From NCBI RefSeq assembly GCF_007988905.1, contig NZ_BJVA01000006.1, positions 1 through 64,000 on the forward strand: 64,000 bases of DNA. Reading direction: 5' to 3'. This DNA comes from Gluconobacter kanchanaburiensis NBRC 103587 (GTDB lineage: Bacteria > Pseudomonadota > Alphaproteobacteria > Acetobacterales > Acetobacteraceae). Shown one piece after another: positions 2,312 through 18,530 of the stretch (within the stretch, counting starts at the first letter, position 1; each line of letters opens with the position of its first letter). Both the position numbers and the translations under genes were made by a program. The notes below the pieces were generated by a model. That model was given only the letters and a program-made list of their open reading frames with translations, was not told the origin of the DNA and did no database searches.

Positions 2312-2314
2312 TCC
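2297..2314 (+). repeat. attL: left attachment repeat in guaA 3' end
   Basis: This 18-bp sequence matches 16632–16649 at 17 of 18 positions, with the first 13 bases identical. It includes the codons for the last residues and the TAA stop of guaA, so integration rebuilds the gene end. The integrase gene starts about 300 bp to its right. Confidence 0.88.
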
Positions 2315-2357
2315 CGCGTCTGGCATAAGGTGGCATCACCCGGCATGAAAGTGCCTT

Positions 2358-2386
2358 AAAGCCCGCAGAAATGCGGGCTTTTTTGT
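2358..2386 (+). terminator. Rho-independent terminator after guaA
   Basis: Stem AAAGCCCGC/GCGGGCTTT with loop AGAAAT is followed by a T-run. It lies inside the island, 47 bp past the guaA stop, so it is an island-borne replacement for the terminator now found at 16694. Confidence 0.88.
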
Positions 2387-2469
2387 TTTTTGGTCCGGCA
2401 TTGTCTGGCACAGAACGGTATCGCCAAGCAGTTATTTTTTATGGCATAGTGCGTGGCACTGACTGAGTC

Positions 2470-2594
2470 TGATGCCATGGTTTTTGTTGATACCATGTCG
2501 GACACTTTGTGGGTGTCATGGTATTAATTTCCAATAACCTGTTGAATAAAAAGGGATTTCTCTGATTATTTTGGCGGTTTTTGATCATGGTATT
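2470..2594. promoter_or_regulatory. putative integrase arm/excisionase sites (CATGGTAT repeats)
   Basis: TCATGGTATT occurs at 2516–2525 and 2585–2594, and the inverse ATACCATG at 2490–2497; a related GCCATGG lies at 2474–2480. CATGGTAT occurs again at 16566–16573 near the right end. Short repeats near both att sites are typical of arm-type sites of tyrosine integrases. The role is inferred. Confidence 0.4.
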
Positions 2595-2616
2595 GTTATG
2601 TGGGTGCCACGAACCG

Positions 2617-3813: not shown

Positions 3814-4662
3814 CTTTCTTGTCTGCGCACCTTTTTTTTGAGCGCGCTTTTTGACTGCTGCCGAAACAGCCTGGCGCGAAATACCCAGCTTTCGAGCTAT
3901 TTCGGATTGGTTCAGCGTACCCTCGGATAGTAAGTCGTGAATCATGCTCGCAGAAGATCGGATGGCTTGAACCTGCCTGTATGCTTCTCGTCGAACATAC
4001 ACTTGGTCTTCGATATCCCAGTGCGCGCGAGTGAGGTTGTTGATACAAAGGCTCCATATCTGCTCTATTAGGGCGCGATATTCCCAAATAAATCGCCTGT
4101 CCCTCTGATAAGCCCTTCGAGATTCTGTACTTCTTCGTGGGTTGTGATGCTCGCAATACAGTTTACTTGGCTTCGGTCCATTCGGGTCACTCCCAGATAA
4201 CCGCGTTGGCCACGCAAGATCACCATGTCGGCTGTGTTCGCTCAACCTCATCTTGGGTTCGATGTGTTCTAGAAAGCCCTCGTAAGAATAATCCGCCCTC
4301 AGTTCAGTAGAATCACAATAGCGCATAAGCATTTTCCCCACCTCGTAAGGCCCATATTTTCCAGATAAGGCGAGGCGGTAGCGCTCTGCTACTTTAAGTG
4401 AGCGGGCTCTGGCGCTTTCGATCATCTTATCGGTCAGGGGGACCAGCTTAGCGTTTCCTCGTTTTAGTTTTTTTACGACTACCGGGGAATTCGTTACCAC
4501 AGAATATTCTGTCTGGTTTTCACAGAGTTCGCAGAAGTATGCGTCAAATGCATAAAACGATCCGCTCAGTTTCGCTTTCATGCGACCTGTTGGATCTGAT
4601 TGAACAACCATGCGCTCAAGATGTGGATCGAAAGCAAGCTGTGTTTTGCGGCGTCGAGACAT
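3625..4662 (-). CDS. HTH-containing protein of unknown function, overlapping the integrase
   Basis: It has 345 residues. Near the N-terminus YFCELCENQ could be a C-x2-C zinc knuckle, and near the middle LYCEHHNPRRSTESRRAY has Cys/His followed by a basic SRRAYxRDRR segment. Around residues 250–275, LNQSEIARKLGISRQAVSAAVKKR is a clear helix-turn-helix. The last 63 residues are read antisense to the integrase catalytic domain and are probably a run-on tail. It is likely a DNA-binding protein of the island; function not assigned. It is divergent from alpA, so the 109 bp at 4663–4771 should hold both promoters. Confidence 0.62.
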   Translation of the reverse strand: MSRRRKTQLAFDPHLERMVVQSDPTGRMKAKLSGSFYAFDAYFCELCENQTEYSVVTNSPVVVKKLKRGNAKLVPLTDKMIESARARSLKVAERYRLALSGKYGPYEVGKMLMRYCDSTELRADYSYEGFLEHIEPKMRLSEHSRHGDLAWPTRLSGSDPNGPKPSKLYCEHHNPRRSTESRRAYQRDRRFIWEYRALIEQIWSLCINNLTRAHWDIEDQVYVRREAYRQVQAIRSSASMIHDLLSEGTLNQSEIARKLGISRQAVSAAVKKRAQKKGAQTRKLALANGPLIDHVGPILQHGASLLAIFGLIVDGPDALLLMGKALLDPISIITSFVQKSTRRAA

Positions 4663-4771
4663 GTTCTCAGCCTACAGTCGATGTCAACCATATTCTATCT
4701 TTTTCCCGGCATCAGCGGGCATCGGCCGATAGTGTCAAGCATAACGCTATGCTGACACAGGAATAACAGAC

Positions 4772-4993
4772 GTGGGAATGACAAGCAGAGTTCTGATCGG
4801 GCGCAAAAAGCTTCATGAGATGATTCCTCTTGCTGAACGAACCATCTTCAATATGGAGCAGCGTGGCGAGTTCCCCCGCCGTATCGCGCTGACAAGTAGA
4901 AACGTGGCGTGGGACCTTGGTGAAGTTGAGGCGTGGATTGAGGCGCGCAGGGCGCAGGGCGCTCAGGCGCAGCGTCCTGGTGTGCGCTTCTGA
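4772..4993 (+). CDS. AlpA-like MerR-type HTH regulator / excisionase
   Basis: A 73-residue protein (71 if ATG 4778 is used) with the AlpA-type winged helix: LIGRKKLHEMIPLAERTIFNMEQRGEFPRRIAL and WDLGEVEAWIEARR. Such proteins recognise island DNA and act as excisionases or activators of integrase genes. AGGA at 4759–4762 serves GTG 4772. It directly precedes repA, the usual AlpA–RepA order in integrated plasmid-like elements of Alphaproteobacteria, and may share its transcript. Confidence 0.85.
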   Translation: MGMTSRVLIGRKKLHEMIPLAERTIFNMEQRGEFPRRIALTSRNVAWDLGEVEAWIEARRAQGAQAQRPGVRF

Positions 4994-5002
4994 TTTCCGA
5001 GC

Positions 5003-5872
5003 TTGTTTGTAACGCCTGTGTCTCCCATTCGCGGGGAGCAGCATGCCGCCGGCAAGGCATCAAAATGTTCCTCAGCAGACCTCTGCCATCGGGAAGGCTT
5101 TTTCGTCGCAGACATTCTGGCCGCTGCACCAAAGGGTGACGCGGTTAGCATGGAGCATCCACTGTTTGCGTTAAAAGCGGGCGATAGGCGTGTAAGAACC
5201 TATGAGCGTAACGGTCTCTTGGTGACCGTGAAGCCCGGGGCGGATGGTTGTGCGACCATACATGACAAGGACTTGTGGATTTATTGCATCAGTCAGTTGG
5301 TGGAGGCCAAGAATCGTGGGCGCCCCATAACACCAACAGTGCGTTTTACGGCTTATGATTTTCTCCGTAGTACGAACCGCTCAACAGGGGGGCTCGGCTA
5401 CCGCCGTATAGTCGGTATGCTTGCAAGACTGAGAGGGACTGGCATCGAGACTAATATTGAGACGAACGGACAGTGTGAGCGACGCGGCTTTGGACTGATT
5501 GATTCATGGCGGATTGTAGAAAAGTCGCCAACAGATGATCGGGTGACAGCCATCGAGGTGGATTTGCCACACTGGCTATTCCGTTCTGTTGCGACCATGC
5601 GGGTTCTGACCCTGTCACGGGACTATTTCAAACTCCGCAAGCCGCTTGAGCGGCGCATATATGAACTTGCCCGTAAACATTGTGGTCTTCAGCCAAAATG
5701 GCGCGTGTCTGTGACGGTCTTGTACGCAAAAAGCGGCAGTACTGCGACTTTGAGAGAGTTTCGACGGCAGGTAAAGGAATTGTCAGGTATCAACCTGCTA
5801 CCTGATTATCAGATGTCGCTTGATACAGAACATGACCACGTAACTTTCTTTGCCAAAAGAGGGGGGCGCTGA
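5003..5872 (+). CDS. repA: plasmid replication initiator protein A (RPA family)
   Basis: A replication initiator expected to bind the iterons just downstream and open the origin. From residue 33 it follows the RPA (pfam10134) pattern: FFVADILAAAPKGD, SMEHPLFALKAGDRRVR, ATIHDKDLWIYCISQL, FTAYDFLRSTNR, LRGTGIETNI and DYFKLRKPLERRIYELARKHCG. The family N-terminus (FFVxDI…APK) lies upstream of Met50, so a start before it is needed: TTG 5003 or GTG 5018, both without a strong ribosome site. That, plus the closeness to alpA (9 bp), suggests translation coupled to alpA. It appears complete at 289 residues. Confidence 0.9.
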   Translation: MFVTPVSPIRGEQHAAGKASKCSSADLCHREGFFVADILAAAPKGDAVSMEHPLFALKAGDRRVRTYERNGLLVTVKPGADGCATIHDKDLWIYCISQLVEAKNRGRPITPTVRFTAYDFLRSTNRSTGGLGYRRIVGMLARLRGTGIETNIETNGQCERRGFGLIDSWRIVEKSPTDDRVTAIEVDLPHWLFRSVATMRVLTLSRDYFKLRKPLERRIYELARKHCGLQPKWRVSVTVLYAKSGSTATLREFRRQVKELSGINLLPDYQMSLDTEHDHVTFFAKRGGR

Positions 5873-5960
5873 AACGCGGCTGCTCGCAATCTGTAGCTAA
5901 GAAACGCTCGCTTGCTCAGTAGCAGGGCGACATTGAGGAGCTGATCCTCCCAAAACACCC

Positions 5961-6155
5961 TGTTGATAAGTGGCGATAGCTTTGTGGAATGTCACGTACC
6001 TTCACCCACGTTTTCCTGTGGATTAGCACGTACCTTTACCCACGCCCCGACACGTACTTTCACCCACACGAGTGGTATATAACACATTGAATATTATATG
6101 TTTTTCTAACCCTTAACACGCGCGCGCGTTTTAACTCAAATATATTCTTTTAACG
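5961..6155. other. plasmid-type replication origin (DnaA-like boxes, iterons, AT-rich region)
   Basis: Directly after repA are two near-consensus DnaA boxes (TGTTGATAA 5961–5969 and TGTGGATTA 6017–6025, each one mismatch from TGTGGATAA), three 18-bp iterons (5993–6068), and an AT-rich stretch with runs such as ATATTATATG (6069–6155) that would be the unwinding element. The layout Rep gene–DnaA boxes–iterons–AT-rich DNA is that of an iteron plasmid origin. Activity in the chromosome is not known. Confidence 0.8.
5993..6068. repeat. three iterons, 18 bp
   Basis: CACGTACCTTCACCCACG (5993–6010), CACGTACCTTTACCCACG (6027–6044) and CACGTACTTTCACCCACA (6051–6068). Start spacings are 34 and 24 bp. 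They are presumed RepA-binding sites. Confidence 0.88.
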
Positions 6156-6219
6156 TCTACGGGGCTCTTCCTGCTGGGGATATGTCTTCAAGGACGTCCT
6201 TCGTGCCAAGGGCGAGAGT

Positions 6220-6249
6220 GTTTAAACGCTTTGCTCGTAGCGTTTAAAC
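6220..6249. repeat. perfect 11-bp inverted repeat with 8-nt loop
   Basis: GTTTAAACGCT (6220–6230) and AGCGTTTAAAC (6239–6249). It lies between the origin and the end of traK. There is no T-run on either side, so an intrinsic terminator is unlikely; a protein-binding site or cruciform in the origin region is possible. Confidence 0.7.
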
Positions 6250-6262
6250 GGCATGCAATTCA

Positions 6263-6619
6263 TTATTTCTCTGTGCCCTCCGCAGGGGACAGCCAGTGGG
6301 CAACGAGCTCACGATCAGGGCTTGGATGGAAGTTTATCGGCCTTGGACTAAAAGTACGGCGTTTGGAAGATACCTCCGGGCTTTGTTTTTCAGTGGCTGT
6401 GGAGGAGGCAGGTGGCAGCTCTCTTTTGGGCTGCTGTGAGGGCAGTCCCAAAATAAATTTCCTCACGTGCCGCGTGAACTGACTATAGCTCATCTGAAGG
6501 AGATCGTGATGTTTTTGGAAGATATCTGACCTGTTGTAACCTTGTTCCATCTCTTCTGCGATGGCGGTTTTTAGGGCGAGAAACCTCACGCGAGCCATAC
6601 CCTTTTTATTTGGCGTCAT
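6263..6619 (-). CDS. traK: TraK-like oriT-binding protein
   Basis: A 118-residue protein. The segment RFLALKTAIAEEMEQGYNRSDIFQKHHDLLQMSYSQFTRHVRKFI matches the TraK family, whose members bind and bend oriT DNA in the IncP relaxosome. The tail (residues 65–118) is rich in Pro, Ser and basic residues and looks disordered. The start at 6619 (MTPNKKGMARV) has GGGGAG a few bases upstream; an earlier in-frame ATG at 6691 is poorly placed. It is divergent from traJ, the same arrangement as around RP4 oriT. Confidence 0.8.
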   Translation of the reverse strand: MTPNKKGMARVRFLALKTAIAEEMEQGYNRSDIFQKHHDLLQMSYSQFTRHVRKFILGLPSQQPKRELPPASSTATEKQSPEVSSKRRTFSPRPINFHPSPDRELVAHWLSPAEGTEK

Positions 6620-6843
6620 TGTAACTACTCCCCTGATTATACCTACTGCGTTAAAGCGCGGATATGCGCTAATATAATCCAATATATGCAACTATAGGCG
6701 AAAATCTTCCTGATCGTGGGGCCGATGGTACGTTCGCATATAATTGCATTTTGTCGCGTGATGGCTGAAAGCAAGATAGGTTGCCGTGTGCACGGCAACG
6801 TGCTTGTTCGCCTGTGGCTCAACGCTGGTAAAGGGGTGGTCTA
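6620..6843. other. putative oriT between traK and traJ
   Basis: In IncP-type transfer systems oriT lies between divergent traK and traJ, as here. The 224 bp contain an AT-rich part (6670–6692), a cytosine/thymine-rich ATCTTCCTG (6704–6712) that resembles MOBP nic regions but is not an exact match, and the near-perfect palindrome GTTGCCGTGTGCACGGCAAC (6780–6799; 9-bp arms), a likely TraJ site. The nic position is a guess. Confidence 0.55.
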
Positions 6844-7224
6844 GTGACCGAGATCGAGAAGAAGCGCCAAAAAAATATCGGACCGCGGTCGGGTCAACGT
6901 ATTCCGGTCAAAGTGACGGCAGCAGAAAAAGAAGCAATTGAGCTCACGGCTCGCCAAGTGAGGCTACCGGCTTCCACCCTGATGAGGAGCCTAGCTCTTG
7001 GCTATAGTCCTCCTAGTCGTGTCGATCAGGAGACTTTTCTTGAACTGTTCAGGCTGAGAGGGGATCTGGGCCGTATTGGTGGTCTTCTCAAGCTATGGCT
7101 GGTCGATCGGCCTGATGCCGTAGTGCCAAATAAGGTCGTTCGGGAGGCTTTGGTCGACATATTGGAACGACAAGAGCAGGTTGCTGATTTGATAAGTGAG
7201 ATGCGTCCTTTAATTTGCTGTTAG
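6844..7224 (+). CDS. traJ: TraJ-like relaxosome accessory protein (ribbon-helix-helix)
   Basis: A 126-residue protein. The N-terminal half, IPVKVTAAEKEAIELTARQVRLPASTLMRSLALG, is the MobC/TraJ-type ribbon-helix-helix. The core LRGDLGRIGGLLKLWL is the TraJ signature, and a helical C-terminus follows. TraJ binds oriT and helps recruit the TraI relaxase. The start is GTG, and the gene lies immediately right of the putative oriT. In intact elements a relaxase gene follows; here it is missing and the next coding DNA is a damaged resolvase. Confidence 0.8.
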   Translation: MTEIEKKRQKNIGPRSGQRIPVKVTAAEKEAIELTARQVRLPASTLMRSLALGYSPPSRVDQETFLELFRLRGDLGRIGGLLKLWLVDRPDAVVPNKVVREALVDILERQEQVADLISEMRPLICC

Positions 7225-7237
7225 AACGCCTACAGAC

Positions 7238-7264
7238 TGTCCAGAAAACGGTGGTTTCCGGACA
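7238..7264. repeat. imperfect inverted repeat upstream of the resolvase remnant
   Basis: TGTCCAGAAAAC and GGTTTCCGGACA form 12-bp arms matching at 10 positions, around GGT. It lies between traJ and the resolvase pseudogene. It may be part of a resolution site or a transposon edge brought in with the resolvase; this is not established. Confidence 0.4.
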
Positions 7265-7349
7265 CGTTGAAAATTCGCATCCGCGACTATCCGAAGCCTC
7301 CTTGGCGAGTTAATATTCTCGTCAAGTTTCCAACGTCTCGGTTGTGTCA

Positions 7350-7753
7350 ATGAAACAGCGGATCGGCTGCGCGCGGGTTTCCACAGAGGAGCAGCACCTG
7401 GACTTGCAGCGCGACGCCCTTCAGCAAGTTGATTGCCATGTCACCTACGAGGAGGCAGCAAGCGGGAAGAGCGGTGCTCGGCCAGAGCTGGATCAGTGCC
7501 GAAAGGCCCTGCGCAGCGGAGACACGCTAGTGGTATGGCGATTGGATCGGCTCGGGCGCAGCCTGATCCGCGAGCGCACCCAGCCGGCCTAGCTGCAGCG
7601 CGCGCCAGAGGCCGCTCCGGCGGCCGCAAACCCAAGCCTGGGGAGATGCAGGCCCGCGAGATCAAGGCGCTGCTTCGTGAGCCTGAGATACAGGTTGCGG
7701 ATGTGGCCCGGCGCTACGGCGTGTCCTGAACCACCCTGTACAAACATGGTTGT
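7350..7753 (+). pseudogene. serine recombinase (Tn3-type resolvase), broken
   Basis: The N-terminal catalytic part is intact: IGCARVSTEEQHLDLQRDAL (Ser nucleophile), ASGKSGARPELDQC, LVVWRLDRLGRSL. The sequence then jumps to IRERTQ, so about 60 codons between GRSL and IRERTQ are gone. A one-base loss after ACCCAG shifts the frame and gives a stop at 7590. The C-terminal part continues in another frame as GLAAARARGRSGGRKPKPGE and an HTH, but has a stop (TGA 7727–7729, probably from CGA) in front of TTLYKH. With three lesions it cannot be functional. It sits at the junction of the mobilisation and defence modules. Confidence 0.88.
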
Positions 7754-7836
7754 GTTGTCGCACCACGGCAGCCATGACCTTACGTTGCACATAACCGAAC
7801 CCAAGGAATCACAGGAATGCAGCCTCGGAGATCACG

Positions 7837-7959
7837 TTGAGCACCGAAAAAGACCTCTCGGCCGCCGCTGACAAGATGCGCCGCGCGTTGAATATCGGGG
7901 AATACAAGCAGATTACGATTGTCCTGCATAAGCACAAGAAGATAGTTCAATACCAATGA
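7837..7959 (+). CDS. 40-residue leader ORF coupled to hsdM, unknown function
   Basis: TTG start with GGAG at 7827–7830 and a 6-base gap, an ideal spacing. The product begins MSTEKDLSAAADKMRRALNI and ends HKHKKIVQYQ; it is small and basic. Its TGA (7957–7959) overlaps the hsdM ATG in an ATGA, the same coupling seen at three later junctions of the operon, while hsdM has no ribosome site of its own. This suggests real translation. I recognise no family; it could be a regulator, an inhibitor or simply a coupling leader. Confidence 0.55.
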   Translation: MSTEKDLSAAADKMRRALNIGEYKQITIVLHKHKKIVQYQ

Positions 7960-10085
7960 GCATTAACTTTCAGCAACTCGCCTATTTTATCTGGTCGGTG
8001 GCCGATCTGCTGCGCGGCCCTTACCGTCCGCCGCAATATGAGCGCGTCATGCTCCCGCTCACCGTGCTGCGCCGCTTCGATGCCGTGCTGGCACCGAGTA
8101 AGGAGGCCGTTCTCAAGCGGTACGAGCAGCTCACGGCGAAGAACATCTCAAACATCGACGCCATCCTCAATAACTTGGCTAAGGATGAGGACGGCACCCC
8201 GCTGGGTTTTCATAACCACAGCCAACTTGACTTCCAGAAGCTCAAGGGCGACCCCGATAACATCGGTCGTCATTTGGCCGACTACATCGCCAGCTTTTCA
8301 GAGAACGTCCGCAAGATATTCGAGCGGTTCGAGTTCGACAAGGAGATCGAGAAGCTCGAAGAGTCCAACCGTCTCTACCAGGTGGTTTCCCAGTTCACCG
8401 AGATCGACCTGCACCCCAACAGGGTGGACAACATTACCATGGGTCTGGTGTTCGAAGACCTGATTCGGCGCTTTAACGAAGCCGCGAACGAAACCGCCGG
8501 CGACCACTTTACCCCGCGTGAAGTTATCCAACTCATGGTCAATTTGTTGCTGGAGCCCGACACCAGCGTGCTCACTCAGGCCGGTATTATCGTCACTATC
8601 TGCGACCCCGCATGCGGCACCGGAGGCATGCTGACCGAAGCGCAAAATTGGATCCGAGCCCACAATGATCAAGCCACGGTCAAAGTCTTTGGGCAGGACT
8701 ACAACCCGCGTTCCTATGCTGTGGCAGCTTCCGACTTGTTGATCAAGGGGCACAAGGATGGTCAGGTGGTGCTGGGCAACACTCTCACCGATGACCCGTT
8801 TCCGGACCACACGTTCGACTATCTGCTGGCCAATCCGCCTTTCGGTCTGAATTGGAATACTGAGAAACAAACCATTGATCGCTGGCCCAACTTTCGTGGC
8901 TACGGCGGCAAGCTACCGCGTATCAGCGACGGTGCCCTATTGTTCCTGCTCTACATGATGAGCAAGTTCCAGGACTACAAGCCAGGCCGCCGCGACATGC
9001 CCGGCTCACGCGCCGCCATTGTGTTCAATGGCTCGCCGCTGTTTACTGGCGGTGCTGGCAGTGGCGAAAGCGAGATTCGCCGCTGGATCATCGAGCGCGA
9101 CCAGCTTGAAGCCATCGTCGCCCTACCCGAGCAGATGTTCTACAACACCGGCATCGGCACCTTCATTTGGGTGGTAAGCAACCGCAAGGCGGCAAACCGC
9201 CGGGGCAAGATCCAGCTCATTGACGCCCGCGAACGCTACACATCGATGAGGCGTAGTCTGGGTAACAAGCGCCGCTACCTTGACCCAGTTGCGCTCGGTG
9301 CCATCACCCGCGAACATGGTGCACTGGAAAACAGCCAGACCAGCCGCGTGTTTGACAACAAGGATTTCGGCTATCGCCGTATTACCGTACTGCGCCCGCT
9401 GCGCCTGCGTTTCCAGATTACCGACGAAGCCCGCGAACGTTTCCTCGACACCTGCCCCGAGCTGTACGATGCCCTGCAGGCGGTGCAGGACGAAGTTGGC
9501 ACCGAACCGCTGTTGGACTGGAGCCAAGCCTGGACCACTGTGCAACAAGTGTTCAAGACCCTGTCCGACGATATGGAAGGTTGGGCCAAGGGTGCCAAGG
9601 GCACGGCGCAGAAGAAAATCTTCCGCGACTGCTTTACCACCGTGGATCCCGATGCCTCACCGGTGATTGCCAAACATCACAAGTCAGACCCTTTGGGGGA
9701 TGCTAGCTACTTCCCTATCCAGACTCTGCCCACCGACCTCACCACACAGTGCCTGCATGTCCTGCTCGGCCTACATCGCGATGGCAAGAAGGGCTTCGTT
9801 GAGTACGAGTCCGACCCGGCGCTTAAGGATGCCGAAAACGTTCCGTTGAAAGAAGACATCGTCAGCTACTTCCTGCGTGAAGTGCAACCCTACGTGCCCG
9901 ATGCTTGGATTGACCGCGAGACGCTGGATGAGCAGGACGGCGGCATCGGCAAGGTGGGCTATGAAATCAACTTCAACCGCATTTTTTTTCAGTATCAGCC
10001 GCCACGCCCGCTGCATAAGATTGATGCGGAGCTTGCTGAAGTGGAAAAGCGGATTTTGGGTTTGCTGTCCGAGGTGACGGAGTGA
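7956..10085 (+). CDS. hsdM: type I restriction-modification system, DNA methyltransferase subunit
   Basis: Modification subunit: an N6-adenine methyltransferase that acts with HsdS to protect host DNA. It has 709 residues, longer than EcoKI HsdM (529). The N-terminal HsdM helical domain (about 1–150) is followed by the methyltransferase domain with SAM motif I DPACGTGGM (from Asp217) and catalytic motif IV NPPF (from Asn293). The C-terminal 200 residues (after about 500) are an extension found in the larger HsdM group. It is first of the hsd operon and overlaps hsdS by GTGA. Base composition and codon use look different from the neighbouring chromosome, consistent with transfer. Confidence 0.95.
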   Translation: MSINFQQLAYFIWSVADLLRGPYRPPQYERVMLPLTVLRRFDAVLAPSKEAVLKRYEQLTAKNISNIDAILNNLAKDEDGTPLGFHNHSQLDFQKLKGDPDNIGRHLADYIASFSENVRKIFERFEFDKEIEKLEESNRLYQVVSQFTEIDLHPNRVDNITMGLVFEDLIRRFNEAANETAGDHFTPREVIQLMVNLLLEPDTSVLTQAGIIVTICDPACGTGGMLTEAQNWIRAHNDQATVKVFGQDYNPRSYAVAASDLLIKGHKDGQVVLGNTLTDDPFPDHTFDYLLANPPFGLNWNTEKQTIDRWPNFRGYGGKLPRISDGALLFLLYMMSKFQDYKPGRRDMPGSRAAIVFNGSPLFTGGAGSGESEIRRWIIERDQLEAIVALPEQMFYNTGIGTFIWVVSNRKAANRRGKIQLIDARERYTSMRRSLGNKRRYLDPVALGAITREHGALENSQTSRVFDNKDFGYRRITVLRPLRLRFQITDEARERFLDTCPELYDALQAVQDEVGTEPLLDWSQAWTTVQQVFKTLSDDMEGWAKGAKGTAQKKIFRDCFTTVDPDASPVIAKHHKSDPLGDASYFPIQTLPTDLTTQCLHVLLGLHRDGKKGFVEYESDPALKDAENVPLKEDIVSYFLREVQPYVPDAWIDRETLDEQDGGIGKVGYEINFNRIFFQYQPPRPLHKIDAELAEVEKRILGLLSEVTE

Positions 10086-11362
10086 GCACCTCAACTGTAC
10101 GAATCGACCCGAACGTCTGGCGCTTGGCACGCTTAAAATTCGTTGCACCATTGCGAAACGAACGCGTGTCTGCCGGCTCCGACCATCCTAGCTACCTTGG
10201 CCTTGAGAACATCGAACCGTGGACGGGCAAGATCATCGAGATCGCATCGAAACTGGATGGCGAGACCGCCGACGAAAGCGCGGGGCTTGCCAATATATTC
10301 AGGGAAGGCGATGTACTGTTTAGCAAACTCCGCCCTTATTTGGCCAAAGCATGTTACGCACTGCATGATGGTGTCTGCTCGACCGAGTTGCTCGTCATGC
10401 GACCTTCGGAGCTTCTCGAACCGCGCTTCCTGCTTTACTCCATCTTGACTCCAGATTTCGTTGATACAGTTGCTGCATCAACATTCGGTGCCAAAATGCC
10501 CCGTGCCAACTGGGATTTCATCGGATCGCTGGAAATCAATGTTCCACCAGTCGAAGAACAGCGCCTCATCGCCAATTACCTCGACCGCGAAACCACCTGT
10601 ATCGACGGACTGATTACCGAAAAGGAACGCATGCTGGCGCTGTTGGCAGAAAAGCGTGCCGCCCTCATAAGCCGCATCGTCACCCGCGGCCTCGACCCCA
10701 ACGTCCCACTTAAGCCCTCCGGCCAGGAATGGCTGGGTGAAATTCCGGCGCATTGGAACATTTGCCAACTGAAGCGCACCTGGATCTCATCCGATTATGG
10801 GCTTTCTGAAAGCATCAGGGACGAAGGAGAAATCGCAGTCCTTCGTATGAGTTGCATTGTAGACGGGCGGATTGATGTTTCGAAGTCTGGCATGATCACA
10901 GAAGTCGACGACCACTTGCTGCTCCGGCGAAACGATCTGCTCTTTAACCGAACAAACAGTCTTGATCAGATTGCAAAGGTTGGGCTGGTGGATTTCGATC
11001 CCGACAAGCCCTTGACCTTCGCTTCCTATCTAGTTCGTATTCGTACGAATCATCGTGCGATGCCGCAGTACTTGGTTGCGCTATTGAATTCGTCACTATT
11101 TCTGGAGTTTGCCCGAAAGAATGCGATCCCGGCGATCGGTCAGGCCAATTTGAGCCCGACGCGATACGGAGAAATTCACATCCCTCTTCCGCCAAAGGTT
11201 GAGCAGGAAGAGATCGTTGTGTTCCTCGAACGAGAAGCCAACACATCAAATCCAATCCGCGAACACATAAAAAGCTCCATTGATCTATTAAAGGAGCGCC
11301 GCGCCGCGCTGATTACCGCCGCTGTTACAGGCCAGATTCCGCTAGAAGAGATGATTTCATGA
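10082..11362 (+). CDS. hsdS: type I restriction-modification system, specificity subunit
   Basis: A 426-residue DNA-recognition subunit with two target-recognition domains and two conserved helical repeats. TRD1 spans about residues 10–155. The central repeat is PPVEEQRLIANYLDRE and EKRAALISRIVTRGLD. TRD2 spans about 215–365. The C-terminal repeat is PPKVEQEEIVVFLERE and ERRAALITAAVTGQ. Both half-sites look intact, so a bipartite target is expected; the sequence recognised cannot be told. The GTG start overlaps the hsdM stop and the stop overlaps the next ATG. Confidence 0.94.
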   Translation: MSTSTVRIDPNVWRLARLKFVAPLRNERVSAGSDHPSYLGLENIEPWTGKIIEIASKLDGETADESAGLANIFREGDVLFSKLRPYLAKACYALHDGVCSTELLVMRPSELLEPRFLLYSILTPDFVDTVAASTFGAKMPRANWDFIGSLEINVPPVEEQRLIANYLDRETTCIDGLITEKERMLALLAEKRAALISRIVTRGLDPNVPLKPSGQEWLGEIPAHWNICQLKRTWISSDYGLSESIRDEGEIAVLRMSCIVDGRIDVSKSGMITEVDDHLLLRRNDLLFNRTNSLDQIAKVGLVDFDPDKPLTFASYLVRIRTNHRAMPQYLVALLNSSLFLEFARKNAIPAIGQANLSPTRYGEIHIPLPPKVEQEEIVVFLEREANTSNPIREHIKSSIDLLKERRAALITAAVTGQIPLEEMIS

Positions 11363-12774
11363 AATTGAAAAGTTTAGGATTGACGAATTTTCGTGGCTTT
11401 GACCGACTGGACATCGGCTTTGATGCGCAAATGACTGTGATTGCTGGCGTCAACGGCGTTGGTAAGTCAACAATTTTGCAAGCCATCACAGCTGCTTATT
11501 CCCATTCCTTGCCTGAGTTTACGGTTTCACGCGAAAAGCCACTGTCCCTACTCGATTCTGACGTCCAGCAAGGCAGATCTTCCTGCATCGTCGAAATGGA
11601 AAGCAATGTCTTGGGAGACGTTTCGCTGATCACTTTTCTTTCCAAGGAAAGTCTGGATCGAGACGAAAAGTTGGGGCTTGAGCACAAGCAATCCATGATG
11701 AAGAAGGGGTTGGTTATCCTTGAAAAAGGATCGCCAGACTACAGGAACCTAAAAAACGAAATTGCGTGGATAGACAAACGTCTGCAAGGCAACTTCGAGA
11801 AACGCTTGCGTTGGCTGTTTACTGATAATCATGAATCCGAAGCGCGCTTGAAGTGCCAGTTAAAAAGCAGTCCGACTCAGCCGCTGGTCGTTTACTACTC
11901 AACGCACCGTCTCCTTTCAAGGCTTCCGCCAAAGCTTCAAAAGGCACTTCCGTTCAAGCAAGCTGCGGCATTTTCAAAATCCCTTACGCAGCTGGAAATT
12001 TCCCTCAATGAGTTCGCCAAGTGGCATCGCGCCATGGGTTCATCTCGTGTAATTCAAGAAGACTCAGAACACGGCTCAAGCATTCTGCCGCTGCTTCAGA
12101 AAGCGATTTCTGGTCTGATTCCACAAATCAAAGAATTTTGGTTTCACGAGGAATACCCGCCGCGCTACGCCGTCACCAAAGATGCGACGATTGATGAGCA
12201 GATTAACGGCAACAAAAGCGACAAGCAGTTATTTTTGGAGCAGTTATCCGATGGTGAACGTGGACTGATTGCTTTAGTGTTCGACCTTACTCGTCGTCTT
12301 GCTATCGCTAATCCTAATCTGACAAATCCAATAGCAGATGGTGAGGCGTTGGTCTTGATTGATGAGGTCGAGCTGCACCTGCATCCCAAGTGGCAACGAG
12401 ATATTTTGCAGCGGCTGCAAGATACCTTCACTGCCTGCCAGTTCGTGGTGACAACCCATTCGCCTCTGGTGCTGGGAGAGGTCCCGGCACGCTGCGTGCG
12501 CTTCCTGGAATTTGTGGATGGCAAGGTGAGCATGACCGTGCCCACTGAGGCTTATGGCATGGATGTCAATCGCATCTTGCAAGAGTTCATGGGTGCGCGG
12601 GTGCGTAACCGTCAGGTGGATAGTGAGCTGAAAGCGCTCTTTGATCTGATTGACCAAGAGCGCTTCGATGACGCCCGTGCTGCGATTGTCACCCTCGAAC
12701 GCAAACTTGGTGATGAGGAACCCGAGTTGACGCGGGCTAGCTCGCTAATCCGCTTTTTAGATGGCGCCGAATAG
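11359..12774 (+). CDS. ptuA: ABC-type AAA ATPase, Septu PtuA-like
   Basis: A 471-residue ATPase of the OLD/RecF-like (COG3950) group: FRGFDRLDIGFDAQMTVIAG start, Walker A GVNGVGKST (30–38), ABC signature LSDGERG (near 296), Walker B ALVLIDEVE (near 330) and H-loop TTHSPLVL. The C-terminal region (about 395–471, MDVNRILQEFMG… to the end) is typical of ATPases paired with TIGR02646 HNH nucleases, as in Septu and in some retron effector pairs. The HNH gene follows at once (TAG–ATG). In Septu, PtuA senses or controls and PtuB cuts; that role here is inferred. The gene appears richer in A and T than hsdM and hsdR. Confidence 0.85.
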   Translation: MKLKSLGLTNFRGFDRLDIGFDAQMTVIAGVNGVGKSTILQAITAAYSHSLPEFTVSREKPLSLLDSDVQQGRSSCIVEMESNVLGDVSLITFLSKESLDRDEKLGLEHKQSMMKKGLVILEKGSPDYRNLKNEIAWIDKRLQGNFEKRLRWLFTDNHESEARLKCQLKSSPTQPLVVYYSTHRLLSRLPPKLQKALPFKQAAAFSKSLTQLEISLNEFAKWHRAMGSSRVIQEDSEHGSSILPLLQKAISGLIPQIKEFWFHEEYPPRYAVTKDATIDEQINGNKSDKQLFLEQLSDGERGLIALVFDLTRRLAIANPNLTNPIADGEALVLIDEVELHLHPKWQRDILQRLQDTFTACQFVVTTHSPLVLGEVPARCVRFLEFVDGKVSMTVPTEAYGMDVNRILQEFMGARVRNRQVDSELKALFDLIDQERFDDARAAIVTLERKLGDEEPELTRASSLIRFLDGAE

Positions 12775-13404
12775 ATGCGCACCATTAAAAAGGGGCAGGA
12801 GCCCGCCACTTTGACGCAGCACCGCAAGCAGTCGCATGCCGACTACGACAACTATGCTGACAAAAGTGCCTTGAGACAAGAATTGGTGGCGGAGCAGCAC
12901 GGTCTGTGCTGCTACTGTCAGTCGCGTATCCGTGCCACACCGGAGGGCATGAAGATCGAACACTGGCAATGCCAGGCCGACCACCCAGGGCGACAGCTCG
13001 ACTACAGTAATCTGCTCGGCGTATGCTTGGGCGGCCAGGGGCGGTCTGAACGCGAGCAGCATTGCGATACACGGAAGGGCAACAAAGCCCTGTGTTTCAG
13101 CGTGTGCGATTCCACCCACCCCATTGAGCCGCATGTCCGATTTTTAGGTGACGGTACCATTAAGGCAGTTGATAGGGACATCAATGAGGCTCTCAACGAG
13201 GTTCTTAATCTCAATCTCCCGCTCCTAGTGAGCAACCGCAAGGCGGTCCTTGCAGCGTTTCAGCAACGTCTGCAGGATGGACGCCGTGTTGACCCGGCAC
13301 GCGAGCTGCCGAAATGGGACGGTAGCGAACCCGGCGAATTGCCGGAGTTCGCGCAGGTCATTGTTTATTGGCTACGAAAAAAACAAGCGAGGTCCGCCGT
13401 ATGA
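12775..13404 (+). CDS. ptuB: HNH endonuclease (TIGR02646 type), Septu PtuB-like
   Basis: A 209-residue predicted nuclease. It has C45-x2-C48 (LCCYCQSRI), catalytic E62-H63 (KIEHWQ), DYSNLLGVCLGG (Asn79, Cys84) and HCDTRKGN (96–103), the full TIGR02646 pattern of metal-binding and HNH residues. It directly abuts the ATPase gene without a gap and overlaps hsdR by ATGA. With the ATPase it forms a Septu-like pair inside the hsd operon. Target (DNA or RNA) and trigger are not visible. Confidence 0.85.
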   Translation: MRTIKKGQEPATLTQHRKQSHADYDNYADKSALRQELVAEQHGLCCYCQSRIRATPEGMKIEHWQCQADHPGRQLDYSNLLGVCLGGQGRSEREQHCDTRKGNKALCFSVCDSTHPIEPHVRFLGDGTIKAVDRDINEALNEVLNLNLPLLVSNRKAVLAAFQQRLQDGRRVDPARELPKWDGSEPGELPEFAQVIVYWLRKKQARSAV

Positions 13405-16400
13405 AGCGCACCAGCGAAGCCGCATTCGAAACCGCCATCGAAGCCGTCTTGCTGAATGACGGATACGTACGGATGGATGCCAAAAGCTTCGATCGAGCGC
13501 GCGCGATCTTCCCTGACGAGGCCTTGGCCTTCATCCGTGCCACTCAACGCAACTTGTGGGATAAGCTGGAAGCATTGCACGGCGAGCAGACGGGCGCCCG
13601 GGTGCTGGAAACACTTTGCAAATGGCTGGACACACACGGTGTACTGGCCACGTTGCGGCACGGGTTTAAATGCTTTGGCAAGACTTTGCGGATCGCGTTC
13701 TTTCGCCCAGCACATGGCTTGAACCCGAAGTTGGAGGCGCGTTACAAAGCCAATCGGCTGGGACTAACCCGCCAACTACATTTCAGTCCTAAGTCGGAAA
13801 AATCACTGGATGTGGTGCTGTCGGTCAATGGCATCCCAGTGGTCACGCTGGAACTCAAGAATCCTTTGAGCGGCCAGTCGGCTGCCAATGCCATTCACCA
13901 GTACCGCCACGACCGCGAGCCGCGCGAGCCCATCTTCGTGTTCACCAAGCGCACGCTGGTGCATTTTGCGGTGGATACCGAAGAAGCGCACATGGCCACG
14001 CGCCTGGCGGGCACATCCACCACTTTCCTGCCTTTCAATCGCGGCCTGGACGGCGGTGCCGGCAATCCGCCCTACCGCGAGGGCCGCAACTACAAGACGG
14101 CGTATTTGTGGGAAGAAGTGCTGCGACGCGACAGCCTGCTCGACCTACTTGCCCGCTTTCTGCACCTGAATGTGGAAGAGAAGACCACAGACGACGGTAA
14201 AAAAGTGCGCAAGGAAAGTCTGATCTTTCCGCGTTACCACCAGTTGCAGGCGGTACGCCAGATGGTGGCAGTTGCCGCAAGCGAAGGCGCGGGACACAAC
14301 TATCTGGTCGAGCATTCAGCCGGTAGCGGCAAGAGCAACACCATTGCCTGGTTGGCGCACCGCCTTTCCAGCCTGCACAACGAAGGCGACGAACGGCTGT
14401 TTGACAGCGTGGTGGTCATCACCGACCGCGTGGTGCTGGACCGTCAGTTGCAAAACACGATCTACCAGTTTGATCACCGTCAGGGCGTGGTGCAGAAGAT
14501 CGACGAGGACTCACGCCAGCTCGCAGAGGCACTCGAAGCGGGTGTGCCCATCATCATCACCACGCTGCAGAAGTTCCCGTTCGTGACAGGGCAGCTGGCC
14601 AAGCTCAATGAGGAACGCGGGGAGGGCAGCCAAAGCCATCTGCCCACGCGCAGGTATGCAGTGATCATTGACGAAGCACACAGCTCGCAATCAGGCGAAA
14701 CGGCCACCGAGCTCAAGGGCGTGTTGGGCGGTGTCGAGCTGCGAAAGAAGGCGCAGGCGATGGCTGAGGAGGAAGGCGAAGTGGAACTGGAGCGGCTGTT
14801 CCGTTCCATGGCCAAGCGCGGCCACCAGCCGAACATAAGCTTCTTTGCCTTCACCGCCACGCCCAAACATAAGACGCTGGCGATCTTCGGTCGCAGCGGT
14901 GAATCCTTTCACCGCTACACCATGCGCCAGGCCATTGAGGAAGGTTTCATTGAGGACGTGCTGAAGAGCTACGTCACCTACAAGACCTATTACAAGCTGA
15001 TCAAGAAAGCCGAAGACGACCCCAACGTCGAGCGCAAGAAGGCGGCCAAAGCGCTGGCCCGCTTCATGCGCCTGCACCCGCACAACATCGGCCAGAAGAC
15101 CGAGGTAATGGTCGAGCATTTCCAGCAGTTCACCCGGCACAAGATTGGCGGACATGCCAAAGCGATGGTGGTGACCGGATCGCGTTTGGAGGCGGTGCGC
15201 TACAAGCAGGAGTTCGACCGCTACATCCAAGAAAAGGGATACCCGATCAAAAGCCTTGTGGCGTTCTCGGGTAAGGTGGAAGACGACAAGGTTCCAGATA
15301 AGTCGTACACCGAGGTGGAGATGAATGACGGCCTGAAGGAAAAGGAGTTGCCTGACACCTTCGCCAAACCAGATTTCCGCGTGCTACTGGTGGCCGAGAA
15401 ATACCAGACTGGTTTCGATCAGCCGCTGTTGCACACGATGTACGTGGACAAGCGGCTGGCGGGCATTCAAGCCGTGCAGACATTGTCGCGCTTGAACCGG
15501 ACACATCCACTCAAAGACGATACCTTCGTGCTTGATTTCGTTAACGAGCCAGACGAAATCCAAGAGGCCTTCCGGCAGTATTACGATGGCTCGGTAATGG
15601 GTGAACAGGTCGATCCAGACAAGCTCTATGAGGTGAAGGCCGAGCTGGATGCCTCGGGCATTTACCTGCAAACCGAGATTGCCGAGTTTGCTCGTGTGTT
15701 CTTTGCGCCTAAGCGCCGCCAGAGCCCCGGTGACCATAAGCTGATGAATGCTATTCTTGATCAGGCGGTCGCGCGCTTTGTGCAGTTGCAGAACAGTGAA
15801 GAGGATGAAGCTGAGTTGTGGCGCGGCAAGCTGCAGGCCTTTCGCAATCTGTACGGTTTCCTGAGCCAAGTGATTCCCTATCAGGACAGCGATCTAGAAA
15901 AACTCTTCACCTACCTGCGCCATCTCGCGCTGAAGCTGCCAAAGCGCAAGAGCGGGCCGAGCTATCAGTTCGACGAAGGAGTGGAGCTCGATTACTACCG
16001 CTTGCAGAAAATCAGTGAAGGCTCGATCAGCCTCAATGAAGGCTATGCCAAACCGCTTGACGGCCCGCGAGAGGTGGGCTCAGGCATGGTGCGTGAGGAA
16101 CCCGTTTCGCTGTCACGCCTGATCGACATCATCAATCAGCGCTTCGGCGGAGAATTGAATGATGCAGATCAATTGTTTTTTGATCAGATCACCGAAGCCG
16201 CAAGCCAGAACGAGTCCCTGCAAAAGGCAGCAGAGGTCAACTCCCTAGACAAGTTCCAGCTCGTATTTCGGCAAATCCTTGAGGCACTATTTATTGAGCG
16301 CATGGAGCTGAATGAAGAACTGTTTACTGATTACATGGGCAAGTCAGAAATGCGGGAGCTGGTGTCCAAGTGGCTGGGCACCCAAGTTTACGCTCGTCTT

Positions 16401-16424
16401 TCGAATAAGGCCCCGGGGAACTAA
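13401..16424 (+). CDS. hsdR: type I restriction-modification system, restriction subunit
   Basis: Translocating endonuclease of about 1007 residues. The N-terminal PD-(D/E)xK nuclease is seen in LDVVLSVNGIPVVTLELKNP. The SF2 motor has Walker A HSAGSGKSNT (near residue 305), DEAH motif VIIDEAHSSQ, FTATP motif III, and a second RecA domain with KYQTGFDQP and LSRLNRTHP. A C-terminal helical domain binds the methylase core. ATG 13401 overlaps the ptuB stop; TTG 13368 in frame is less likely. It is the last gene of the operon, separated from hsdS by the ptuAB pair, and appears complete, so the RM system should be active. Confidence 0.94.
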   Translation: MKRTSEAAFETAIEAVLLNDGYVRMDAKSFDRARAIFPDEALAFIRATQRNLWDKLEALHGEQTGARVLETLCKWLDTHGVLATLRHGFKCFGKTLRIAFFRPAHGLNPKLEARYKANRLGLTRQLHFSPKSEKSLDVVLSVNGIPVVTLELKNPLSGQSAANAIHQYRHDREPREPIFVFTKRTLVHFAVDTEEAHMATRLAGTSTTFLPFNRGLDGGAGNPPYREGRNYKTAYLWEEVLRRDSLLDLLARFLHLNVEEKTTDDGKKVRKESLIFPRYHQLQAVRQMVAVAASEGAGHNYLVEHSAGSGKSNTIAWLAHRLSSLHNEGDERLFDSVVVITDRVVLDRQLQNTIYQFDHRQGVVQKIDEDSRQLAEALEAGVPIIITTLQKFPFVTGQLAKLNEERGEGSQSHLPTRRYAVIIDEAHSSQSGETATELKGVLGGVELRKKAQAMAEEEGEVELERLFRSMAKRGHQPNISFFAFTATPKHKTLAIFGRSGESFHRYTMRQAIEEGFIEDVLKSYVTYKTYYKLIKKAEDDPNVERKKAAKALARFMRLHPHNIGQKTEVMVEHFQQFTRHKIGGHAKAMVVTGSRLEAVRYKQEFDRYIQEKGYPIKSLVAFSGKVEDDKVPDKSYTEVEMNDGLKEKELPDTFAKPDFRVLLVAEKYQTGFDQPLLHTMYVDKRLAGIQAVQTLSRLNRTHPLKDDTFVLDFVNEPDEIQEAFRQYYDGSVMGEQVDPDKLYEVKAELDASGIYLQTEIAEFARVFFAPKRRQSPGDHKLMNAILDQAVARFVQLQNSEEDEAELWRGKLQAFRNLYGFLSQVIPYQDSDLEKLFTYLRHLALKLPKRKSGPSYQFDEGVELDYYRLQKISEGSISLNEGYAKPLDGPREVGSGMVREEPVSLSRLIDIINQRFGGELNDADQLFFDQITEAASQNESLQKAAEVNSLDKFQLVFRQILEALFIERMELNEELFTDYMGKSEMRELVSKWLGTQVYARLSNKAPGN

Positions 16425-16631
16425 ATGTGCCGTTGAGTGCGCATGTTCTTGGTGGCTGCGGATCTAGAACCGAGACGGATAAGGACTGACTCGCGAGTGA
16501 TTTTCAACGTCACACGGCTATTGGCGTAAAAATCTCACAATCTTTCCTGTGTCAATGGCATTTTACATGGTATCAGATTTGCAAATCTACGTAAGCGTCT
16601 CATAGAAAATGAAAAATTTTCATTATCAATA
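16425..16631. other. island right-end non-coding region with palindromes
   Basis: There is no gene here. It holds CATGGTAT (16566–16573), shared with the left end, the perfect 14-bp palindrome AGATTTGCAAATCT (16575–16588), and AATGAAAAATTTTCATT (16608–16624, 8-bp arms), just before attR. It is likely a recombination arm region, by inference from position. Confidence 0.5.
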
Positions 16632-16649
16632 ATCGAGTGGGAATGATCC
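16632..16649 (+). repeat. attR: right attachment repeat
   Basis: ATCGAGTGGGAATGATCC, 17 of 18 identical to attL in guaA. It lies outside any gene, 207 bp past hsdR. The DNA to its right should be the original downstream flank of guaA. Confidence 0.87.
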
Positions 16650-16693
16650 AGCGTTCGGTCGCAGTTGACGCCATTTGGATCTGATATGCTGAG

Positions 16694-16719
16694 AACCCCG
16701 CAGTGATGCGGGGTTTTTT
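16694..16719 (+). terminator. Rho-independent terminator, probably the original guaA terminator
   Basis: Stem AACCCCGC/GCGGGGTT with loop AGTGAT, then a T-run. It lies 45 bp past attR, close to the distance at which the island terminator follows attL, which suggests it served guaA before integration. Confidence 0.85.
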
Positions 16720-16815
16720 CTGTGGAGTTTGTTTTGCGCCGGAGAGGCACGAGCAGGCTTGCCGGTCTCTCCGGGGAGTGACAGGGTGAGTCTATCTGAA
16801 AACAGGAGACTCTCG

Positions 16816-17814: not shown

Positions 17815-18387
17815 TCAGGTTTCGAGTTCGGTGTTCCAGTACAGATAATCGTGCCAGCTTTCGTGAAGATAATGGGGTGGGAAGGTCCGGCCGTTTTCTT
17901 GAAGAAGACGGCTGCTGGGACGGACGGGTTTACGGTGCGGATGCATGCCCAGTTCGCTGGGGAGTTTTGAGCCTTTCAGCAGATTGCATGGGCTGCAGGC
18001 CGTTACGACGTTTTCCCAGGTCGTCCGGCCACCGCGGGCACGGGGGATGACGTGATCGAAAGTCAGTTCGTGCGTGGGTAATCGGTCATGACAGTACTGA
18101 CACGAGAAATTGTCCCGCAAAAAGACGTTGAAACGGGTGAAGGCTGGTTTGCGGGCTGTGGGAATGTAATCCTTCAGCGCTATGACACTGGGTAGACGCA
18201 TGCTCTGGCTGGGGGAGTGGACGACGGCGTCTTCATATTCGGAGAGGACTGAGACGCGGTCGAGGAAGACGGCCTTGACGGCTTCCTGCCAGGACCAGAG
18301 CGAGAGCGGGAAATAGGACAGCGGACGGAAATCCGCGTTCAGGACAAGAGCCGGAAAATGCTGACCGCTGACGGACACCACACGCAT
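17815..18387 (-). CDS. HNH endonuclease
   Basis: About 190 residues. The N-terminal half (LVLNADFRPLSYFPLSLWSWQEA) is the conserved lead of a common proteobacterial HNH family. The nuclease core has CQYCHDRLP, LTFDHVIPRARGGRTTWENVV and CSPCNLLKGSK, that is, two CxxC knuckles plus the D-H…N…H-type site. The start is ATG 18387, which has AAAGG directly adjoining it; GTG 18381 would be better spaced. Its role, DNA repair or defence, is not known; such genes are common on chromosomes and not necessarily mobile. Confidence 0.88.
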   Translation of the reverse strand: MRVVSVSGQHFPALVLNADFRPLSYFPLSLWSWQEAVKAVFLDRVSVLSEYEDAVVHSPSQSMRLPSVIALKDYIPTARKPAFTRFNVFLRDNFSCQYCHDRLPTHELTFDHVIPRARGGRTTWENVVTACSPCNLLKGSKLPSELGMHPHRKPVRPSSRLLQENGRTFPPHYLHESWHDYLYWNTELET

Positions 18388-18530
18388 CCTTTCTGCAAGG
18401 ACGACACATGCGGGGTTACGGCGCCGAATGAAAACGGGACAAACAGCGGGAAAACACGTGTCGTCGGCTTCTTTGAAGAAACTATTCCAGTAAACTGCGC
18501 AGACCGCAAGCAAACGCTGGTGACACATTC

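Follow-up and report, generated by a model that had tools for sequence, protein, structure and literature searches.

A Septu-type PtuAB pair lies within a type I restriction-modification operon of Gluconobacter kanchanaburiensis and accompanies one HsdR subfamily

The window analysed here is a stretch of 64,000 nucleotides from Gluconobacter kanchanaburiensis NBRC 103587 (contig NZ_BJVA01000006.1, positions 1 to 64,000), which carries a type I restriction-modification operon with a Septu-type ATPase/HNH nuclease pair, PtuAB, between hsdS and hsdR. The five genes lie on the + strand in the order hsdM–hsdS–ptuA–ptuB–hsdR. The methyltransferase gene hsdM (7956–10085; 709 amino acids, aa) matched PADLOC MTase_I at 1.4e-256, N6_Mtase at 2.5e-51 and HsdM_N at 5.6e-24, and the specificity subunit gene hsdS (10082–11362; 426 aa) matched its PADLOC model at 6.4e-109, with Methylase_S found in two stretches. 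The motor and endonuclease subunit gene hsdR (13401–16424; 1007 aa) matched TIGR00348 at 3e-62 with 211.1 bits, below the cut-off of 284.55; in Pfam, HSDR_N and a T1R_D3-like domain scored above cut-off, and SWI2_SNF2/ResIII was also matched. The type I gene set is complete, all three hsd genes lying in a single operon and encoding their characteristic domains. The inserted pair consists of ptuA (11359–12774), encoding an ABC-type ATPase of 471 aa (PADLOC PtuA1, 2.1e-116), and ptuB (12775–13404), encoding an HNH nuclease of 209 aa (PADLOC PtuB1, 7.5e-76). Against the NCBIfam PtuA and PtuB models, which are stricter equivalog models named for retron Ec78, PtuA reached 8.5e-72 but 242.7 of 500 bits, and PtuB 106.6 of 150 bits, both below cut-off. 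PtuB scored above cut-off against TIGR02646 (56.2 against 52.15 bits) and matched no Pfam family at 0.01. At E 0.001, the genome holds no other match of the ptuA kind.

Every junction of the operon is overlapping or touching: GTGA at hsdM/hsdS, ATGA at hsdS/ptuA, TAG-ATG at ptuA/ptuB and ATGA at ptuB/hsdR. The gene order and overlaps given in a preliminary description of this DNA are confirmed by the coordinates, as is its claim that a PtuAB-type pair lies inside the type I operon as part of one translational unit; the motifs that were checked are intact. The joint control and layered action that it envisaged are putative. The same description had counted a leader open reading frame (ORF) as a sixth member of the unit. 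This ORF (7837–7959, +; TTG start, 40 aa) overlaps hsdM at its stop through ATGA, and tblastn against other hsd loci gave nothing above noise. For lack of a relative there it was rejected as a regulator or sixth member, and by sequence comparison it is probably outside the system. In L161 and L284, two of the related loci described below, a different helix-turn-helix-like ORF, judged by eye, ends at hsdM. A scan of 7600–16750 found no promoter-like site on the + strand and one terminator-like site on that strand, at 16425–16444; as the counts were at or below those in shuffled sequence (1 against 3.9 and 10 against 10.4), the scan is evidence neither for nor against internal transcription signals.

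We take the motifs of PtuA to be Walker A K36, the signature S297/G299, Walker B D335-E336 and H367. K36, D335 and E336 are invariant in all 17 PtuA of the clade described below. By motif, K36 and D335 equate with K43 and D316 of Septu EcB88, both required in that system (PMC13096335; this and the other papers are cited for those parts of their text that were accessible). In PtuB, H63 and N79 are invariant in 20/20 aligned sequences; in a second set of 20, H63 is invariant and N79 is conserved in at least 90%. Their spacing of 16 equals that of H75 and N91, which are essential in Septu EcB88 (PMC13096335). The AlphaFold models had a mean predicted local distance difference test score (pLDDT) of 86.6 for PtuA and 95.1 for PtuB. 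Using Foldseek, PtuA matched chain 8eea_D of the E. coli Septu structure 8eea at E 1.1e-25 and PtuB matched 8eea_G at 3.6e-8. Both models match solved PtuA and PtuB of retrons Eco7/Ec78/Ec83 and of E. coli Septu, the best structural matches being of the Eco7/Ec78 type. The PtuA model ends in three helices (418–432, 436–450 and 455–467), and this C-terminal end aligns with solved PtuA. PtuA also matches ATPase models of the RecF/RecN/SMC type, and no PrrC-type family was among its matches listed (all 12 in Pfam, 25 of 27 in NCBIfam).

A genome search for the same gene order, which the preliminary description had proposed, showed that the order recurs beyond the window and is near-fixed in one HsdR subfamily. 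An order confined to this DNA, which that description had named as grounds for refutation, is thereby ruled out. The HsdR and clade-PtuA searches covered genome draws from the window's phylum and class, with plasmids and viral contigs besides. Using an HsdR profile (A3, 7 rows), 53 of 398 phylum genomes matched at 1e-150 and 21 of 385 class genomes matched, the two draws overlapping; the viral-contig search gave 31 loci. In addition, GTDB was scanned with a PtuA alignment, and the neighbours of the best 80 of 106 relatives were labelled by profiles; this returned the order at L015, L016, L017, L020 and L032 (locus handles are our own). Its carriers include named Alpha- and Gammaproteobacteria as well as other genomes belonging to the same class or phylum; among plasmid records, it occurred in Ketogulonicigenium vulgare and, with an unlike Hsd family, on Enterobacter plasmids (L003). 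Because the same order with tight junctions recurs in 17 loci, the window included, chance adjacency is rejected.

A total of 112 HsdR loci were read. Among loci with upstream DNA covered and an HsdR sharing at least 65% identity with that of the window, PtuAB occupies the hsdS–hsdR slot in 17/18; this tier holds 21 loci, three of them without upstream DNA. Among the 17, the window, L002, L015, L016, L017, L020 and L032 were reached by routes other than HsdR, and for the loci of this tier found through HsdR only the count is 10/11. The tier includes near-copies of HsdR (L161 and L284, 96%; L149 and L002, 93%). At 46–60% identity PtuAB was present in 0/21 loci (the fragments L165 and L215 included), and below 46% in 0/62 with upstream DNA, seven further loci being without it. 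One locus is left, Enterobacter L003, with PtuAB in place and an HsdR that gave no blastp match to the window's at 1e-20. Wide flanks were not fetched for three HsdR matches, the fragments G343 and G359 and G510; in the short G510 locus (L112), 576 bp separate hsdS from hsdR and PtuAB is absent. The single exception at 65% identity or above, L153, carries a pair made of an AAA ATPase (PF00004) and an S8 peptidase (PF00082), alone in the slot at 3913–7522. By sequence clustering, the same pair follows PtuAB in L152 (5820–9435, on the hsdR strand). In an HsdR tree with 104 of the 112 loci as rows (17 with PtuAB, 49 with other cargo, 26 empty, 12 unknown), a clade of 21 rows (support 100) contains all 17 PtuAB rows with one other and three unknown; with unknowns omitted, PtuAB versus the rest requires two changes on the tree.

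The reverse approach, starting from PtuA, gave the same association. In a PtuA tree of 103 of the 106 sequences, three being dropped by length, the 17 embedded PtuA form one branch (support 99) that includes no other row, whether stand-alone or retron; with shuffled labels the mean was 16 changes, and 0/500 shuffles were as low as observed. All five GTDB-scan loci inside this clade are embedded in hsd operons. A clade profile (A6) run on the 398- and 385-genome draws left a score gap between 541 and 292 bits, and apart from the profile's own members, 9/9 clade PtuA in these two overlapping draws lie directly after hsdM–hsdS. Seven of the nine, with ptuB and hsdR, are L149–L152 and L160–L162, already counted among the 17. 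The two new loci are L330, where the contig stops after ptuB, and L331, with transposase-like ORFs (by eye) in the ptuB position. Thirteen of 37 weaker A6 matches were fetched; none had the five-gene order, and one of them, L344, is a retron.

The L003 PtuA lies elsewhere in the tree, among PtuA of Pseudomonas, Nitrosomonas and plasmids, and L003 is therefore a second, separate capture. Relatives of its HsdR on plasmids (five loci at 83–85% identity, from 441 matching records) had PtuAB in 0/5 by annotation. The slot of L368 holds a hypothetical gene and that of L369 has no annotated content; L370 has two GTPases and a PD-(D/E)XK protein there, and L371 and L372 an ATP-binding protein with a small gene. 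No megablast match to the Enterobacter version was found in an E. coli collection of 5,426 genomes. PtuAB looks like passing cargo in the L003 HsdR family; in the window's HsdR subfamily it is near-fixed.

Other arrangements of PtuAB with defence genes were encountered. In L343, one of the weaker A6 matches, a contig of 3.4 kilobases (kb) has hsdS about 0.3 kb upstream of PtuAB, which may represent another independent capture. L074 (7116–12118) and L094 (5348–11129) have hsdM–hsdS–ptuA–ptuB with no hsdR among the ORFs listed downstream, and in L094 hsdS and ptuA overlap by 10 base pairs (bp); here PtuAB perhaps replaces HsdR. PtuAB is located after hsdR in L049, and between hsdR and an opposite-strand hsdS–hsdM in L072. 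In L060 (3163–16430; Hominisplanchenecus), PtuAB is flanked by a methyltransferase and a PglZ-like protein in an operon resembling BREX, these labels being given by eye.

Within the 17 loci, the parts of the embedded pair have different histories. L016 has an HsdR 91% identical to the window's, with 41% identity in PtuA and 25% in PtuB; the corresponding values for L015 are 90%, 57% and 73%. In Mantel comparisons of the 17 loci, HsdM–HsdR gave a correlation of 0.96, PtuA–HsdR 0.80 and PtuA–HsdM 0.84 (0/2000 permutations for each of the last two), and the values were 0.20 for PtuA–PtuB, 0.28 for HsdS–PtuA and 0.08 for PtuB–HsdR (287/2000). The C-terminal part of PtuA, taken from residue 400, tracks PtuB (r 0.89; 0.95 and 0.97 within the two halves of the clade), and the PtuA core gave r 0.16 with PtuB (140/2000; -0.02 and 0.05 within halves). 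Outside the clade, 32 PtuA/PtuB pairs from the sister group, L003 included, gave a core–PtuB r of 0.86, against 0.19 inside it. PtuB of the clade falls into type 1 (12 loci, support 98), type 2 (4 loci, support 100) and a third lineage consisting of L016, whose long branch is unsupported.

The exchange has a fixed boundary. By its sequence, the L032 PtuA is chimeric: it is 53–85% identical to the L286 protein up to about window residue 378 and then 55%, 20% and 6%, and 17–65% identical to the L002 protein up to the same residue and then 53%, 80% and 90%, with PtuB at 69–85%. Comparison of the L016 and L161 PtuA shows a break at the same boundary, just before the model helices 418–467. In the window, the part exchanged together with PtuB in relatives corresponds to 12592–12771 (+; residues about 412–471). 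Whole-pair swapping of PtuAB with outside systems is unseen in the clade, where PtuB and the PtuA tail swap instead. We infer at least two replacements of PtuB in this frame, the C-terminal helices of PtuA changing along with it and the ATPase core staying in place.

The hsdS/ptuA ATGA overlap (4 bp) was found in 17/17 clade loci and a 4-bp ptuB/hsdR overlap in 10/17; the script favoured starts near a 4-bp overlap, and the result means that an overlapping start exists. The other ptuB/hsdR junctions are overlaps of 1 bp (L002, L032) and 11 bp (L016), a 5-bp gap (L020) and long gaps (L015, L152, L162). A 4-bp overlap with hsdS also exists in 21/51 loci with other cargo and in 14/28 empty slots, and was for this reason rejected as proof of partnership. 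The other cargos include DarT/DarG, FRG (PDC-S15), TIR-like (PDC-S35), GIY-YIG-like (PDC-S14), Fic-like and Orf5/HEC-06-like genes; PDC denotes PADLOC families, and the domain words FRG and GIY-YIG are our own labels. A reverse transcriptase (RT) profile, seeded with two retron RTs, was unmatched at the window and in the slots of the clade loci; retron RT was present at L007, L067, L095, L096 and L344, of which L095 and L096 had been chosen as retrons. In L015, a Fic-like gene (11971–13131; motif by eye) lies between ptuB and hsdR, and an hsdM end fragment (8437–8718), about 2 kb downstream of hsdM and beside hsdS, suggests insertion. A slot-gene family of 195–215 aa, whose members are 33–91% identical to one another, occurs beside HsdR 54–59% identical to the window's (L164 8448–9035, L165 793–1428, L287 7344–7991, and L292 and L303 7386–7997). 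The L164 gene had no PADLOC match, and the family is a candidate for an unknown defence gene.

The operon is carried by an integrative island (2297–16644) at the 3' end of guaA, bounded by a 13-bp repeat, ATCGAGTGGGAAT, at 2297 and 16632. It contains an integrase-like ORF (2581–3813; judged by eye), encodes a NikA-like mobilisation protein and has, upstream of the operon, a resolvase/invertase remnant (7344–7729) with an internal loss and a frame change. Matches were present in 25 other genomes of the genus, and 13 of these loci were fetched. A related island is absent in 11/13, one of which has about 2 kb of other DNA there; L361 and L363 have a related island with the same backbone, where the resolvase ORF is intact and a different type I operon lies behind it, encoding a 1125-aa HsdR-like protein, a 488-aa HsdM, HsdS and a 305-aa product. 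The island therefore swaps whole restriction systems. Weak PtuB-profile matches (1e-6 to 1e-7) in the same-genus loci were discarded, as they map about at a flanking chromosomal HNH gene (17815–18528). Megablast of window positions 1–24000 against plasmid records gave nine records, whose matches were confined to guaA and the first 186 bases (tRNA site).

The above findings suggest that the operon and its embedded pair are one combined defence rather than two neighbours. We give an even chance to the reading that all five genes belong to a single system, in which a type I restriction enzyme from one distinct HsdR subfamily has a Septu effector built into it. It draws on the gene order, the near-fixed association, the single PtuA clade, the gene overlaps and the modular exchange described above. 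The best reading of these patterns is a dedicated hybrid of restriction and Septu in which the PtuA core is tied to the Hsd frame, the coupling being inferred, and PtuB is an exchangeable nuclease. In retron Eco7, PtuAB arrests growth with loss of tRNA-Tyr, and RT and multicopy single-stranded DNA (msDNA) have been proposed as antitoxins (PMC11555353). Because of the retron Eco7 and Eco4 data and the modularity, we regard the PtuA core as the Hsd-tied part and PtuB with the PtuA tail as the effector unit.

The physical coupling, the trigger and the substrate would then be as follows. HsdM, HsdS and HsdR would modify and restrict DNA, and PtuA would assemble with PtuB as in the solved PtuAB complexes, with its core tuned to the Hsd enzyme. 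The restriction complex, whether bound, engaged or inhibited, could silence PtuAB in place of the RT and msDNA of retron Eco7, and PtuAB would fire once a phage blocks or overruns the restriction enzyme, on the model of PrrC and EcoprrI. PtuB and the PtuA C-terminal helices would form an exchangeable warhead, whose substrate could be DNA or, as for Septu EcB88 and retron Eco7, a tRNA, and might vary from locus to locus. In its full form the proposal makes Hsd both sensor and lock of a Septu toxin released by anti-restriction, with PtuB and the PtuA helices as a plug-in warhead that changes the target, and PtuAB as a general effector for retrons, type I restriction-modification and, from L060, BREX; this we put forward tentatively, with slightly less than even confidence.

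Several observations weigh against the integrated five-gene reading. The slot accepts many unrelated cargos, and the 4-bp overlap often comes with them. When the clade's halves of 11 and 6 members are taken singly, the correlation of the PtuA core with HsdR is insignificant (r 0.29, 156/2000; r 0.35, 249/2000), and because these within-half ties are at chance level, the overall PtuA–HsdR correlation mostly reflects a single deep split. Exchange of PtuA among closely related operons may occur as well. The deep split is also seen in the C-terminal part of PtuA, with r 0.47 to HsdR overall and 0.10 and 0.06 within halves. The 12 type-1 loci alone give a core–PtuB r of 0.73, the decoupling depending on the five loci of other types, and linkage alone could keep the PtuA core in place. 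Finally, the PtuAB target varies: growth arrest by the PtuAB of retron Eco4 came with no loss of tRNA, and nicked DNA is the reported target of one Septu (PMC11555353).

These points have to be set against other explanations. PtuAB could be an ordinary Septu that shares transcript and translation with hsd but senses phage by itself, a second line of defence without physical or regulatory contact with the restriction enzyme. Stand-alone Septu EcB88 acts on tRNA-Tyr and works without hsd (PMC13096335), the simplest account of a slot that houses genes as unrelated as DarT/DarG and the FRG, TIR-like, GIY-YIG-like and Fic-like cargos is shared expression, and L003 places a PtuAB of a lineage mostly seen outside hsd operons in another hsd operon. 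A layered but independent Septu would, however, be expected to exchange as a whole pair, yet 0/17 loci have a PtuA from outside the clade, and near-fixation in one HsdR subfamily contrasts with the cargo turnover in the L003 family (0/5). We consider this independent arrangement unlikely, though it keeps a sizeable share of the probability.

Another possibility is that PtuAB is a processing nuclease that attacks nicked or broken products of HsdR and so hampers repair. The matches of PtuA to RecF/RecN/SMC-type ATPase models and its overall tracking of HsdR and HsdM would fit such a role, but the two PtuAB with a mapped RNA substrate in the papers cited here act on tRNA-Tyr (PMC11555353, PMC13096335), and exchange of PtuB types within one HsdR family is less expected of a tuned DNA-processing partner; we hold this explanation to be improbable. 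More improbable still, at the level of a long shot, is that PtuAB is passing cargo in this strain, brought by chance to a recombination hotspot. The variety of junction contents across the 104 tree rows agrees with a hotspot, and PMC12255303 terms the hsdS–hsdR junction a 'potential recombination hotspot'; the single PtuA clade, the 17/18 association and the 9/9 reverse result speak against it.

Where one defence system sits inside another, clustering or co-expression can be explanation enough. In the present case, an embedded pair is near-fixed across HsdR divergence down to 65%, and its ATPase core is a private lineage in the sample. With the nuclease exchanged at a fixed protein boundary, whether the embedding is functional becomes testable. 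The PtuA C-terminal helices are likely the dock for PtuB, and the natural chimeras are available for probing it.

PrrC is silenced by EcoprrI, is released by anti-restriction and has its own C-terminal nuclease domain. The preliminary description had likened the locus to PrrC with EcoprrI. The comparison is apt in its logic, an ATPase-linked toxin and possible tRNA nuclease nested in a type I operon, as also in PrrC170, an hsd operon with an anticodon nuclease (PMC11555353), since tRNA-Tyr is the target of one retron PtuAB and of a stand-alone Septu (PMC11555353, PMC13096335); it does not extend to family membership. In the window, unlike in PrrC, the nuclease is a separate HNH protein, and the pair lies between hsdS and hsdR. 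Compared with stand-alone Septu type I, PtuA and PtuB are homologous over their full length, keep the catalytic residues and have folds that match 8eea, whereas the window's pair is embedded in hsd, belongs to a separate PtuA clade and has core and PtuB decoupled across loci. Retron type I-A/Septu type II (RT-PtuA-PtuB, as in Eco7/Ec78) likewise joins a PtuAB effector to another operon module, but the clade slots are without RT-profile match and Hsd subunits stand in the place of RT. Septu with an RT, and Hma beside Septu, have also been described (PMC8565338).

In a literature search without preprints and most subscription papers, PtuAB in hsd operons was absent from the titles and abstracts listed. 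The PADLOC PDC families stem from guilt-by-embedding (PMC12988326), and several slot cargos found here match such families, in line with the embedding principle of Payne et al. (2024), whose survey may already include Septu within type I restriction-modification. Among the closest known arrangements is the RptR-controlled RRDM island in E. coli, where DarTG2 lies between hsdS and hsdR (PMC12255303): as in the window, a second defence module occupies the exact hsdS–hsdR junction, in the RRDM island under the same promoter. The RRDM cargo is a toxin-antitoxin pair, present in 12/54 restriction-modification system (RMS)-associated loci of that study, and its regulator RptR has 79 aa, against 40 aa for the ORF before hsdM in the window, which was compared with other hsd loci only. 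DarTG2 in the hsdS–hsdR slot is thus already known, and PtuAB there is a variant of such embedding, one whose ATPase/HNH cargo is near-fixed in a single HsdR subfamily and has an exchangeable nuclease.

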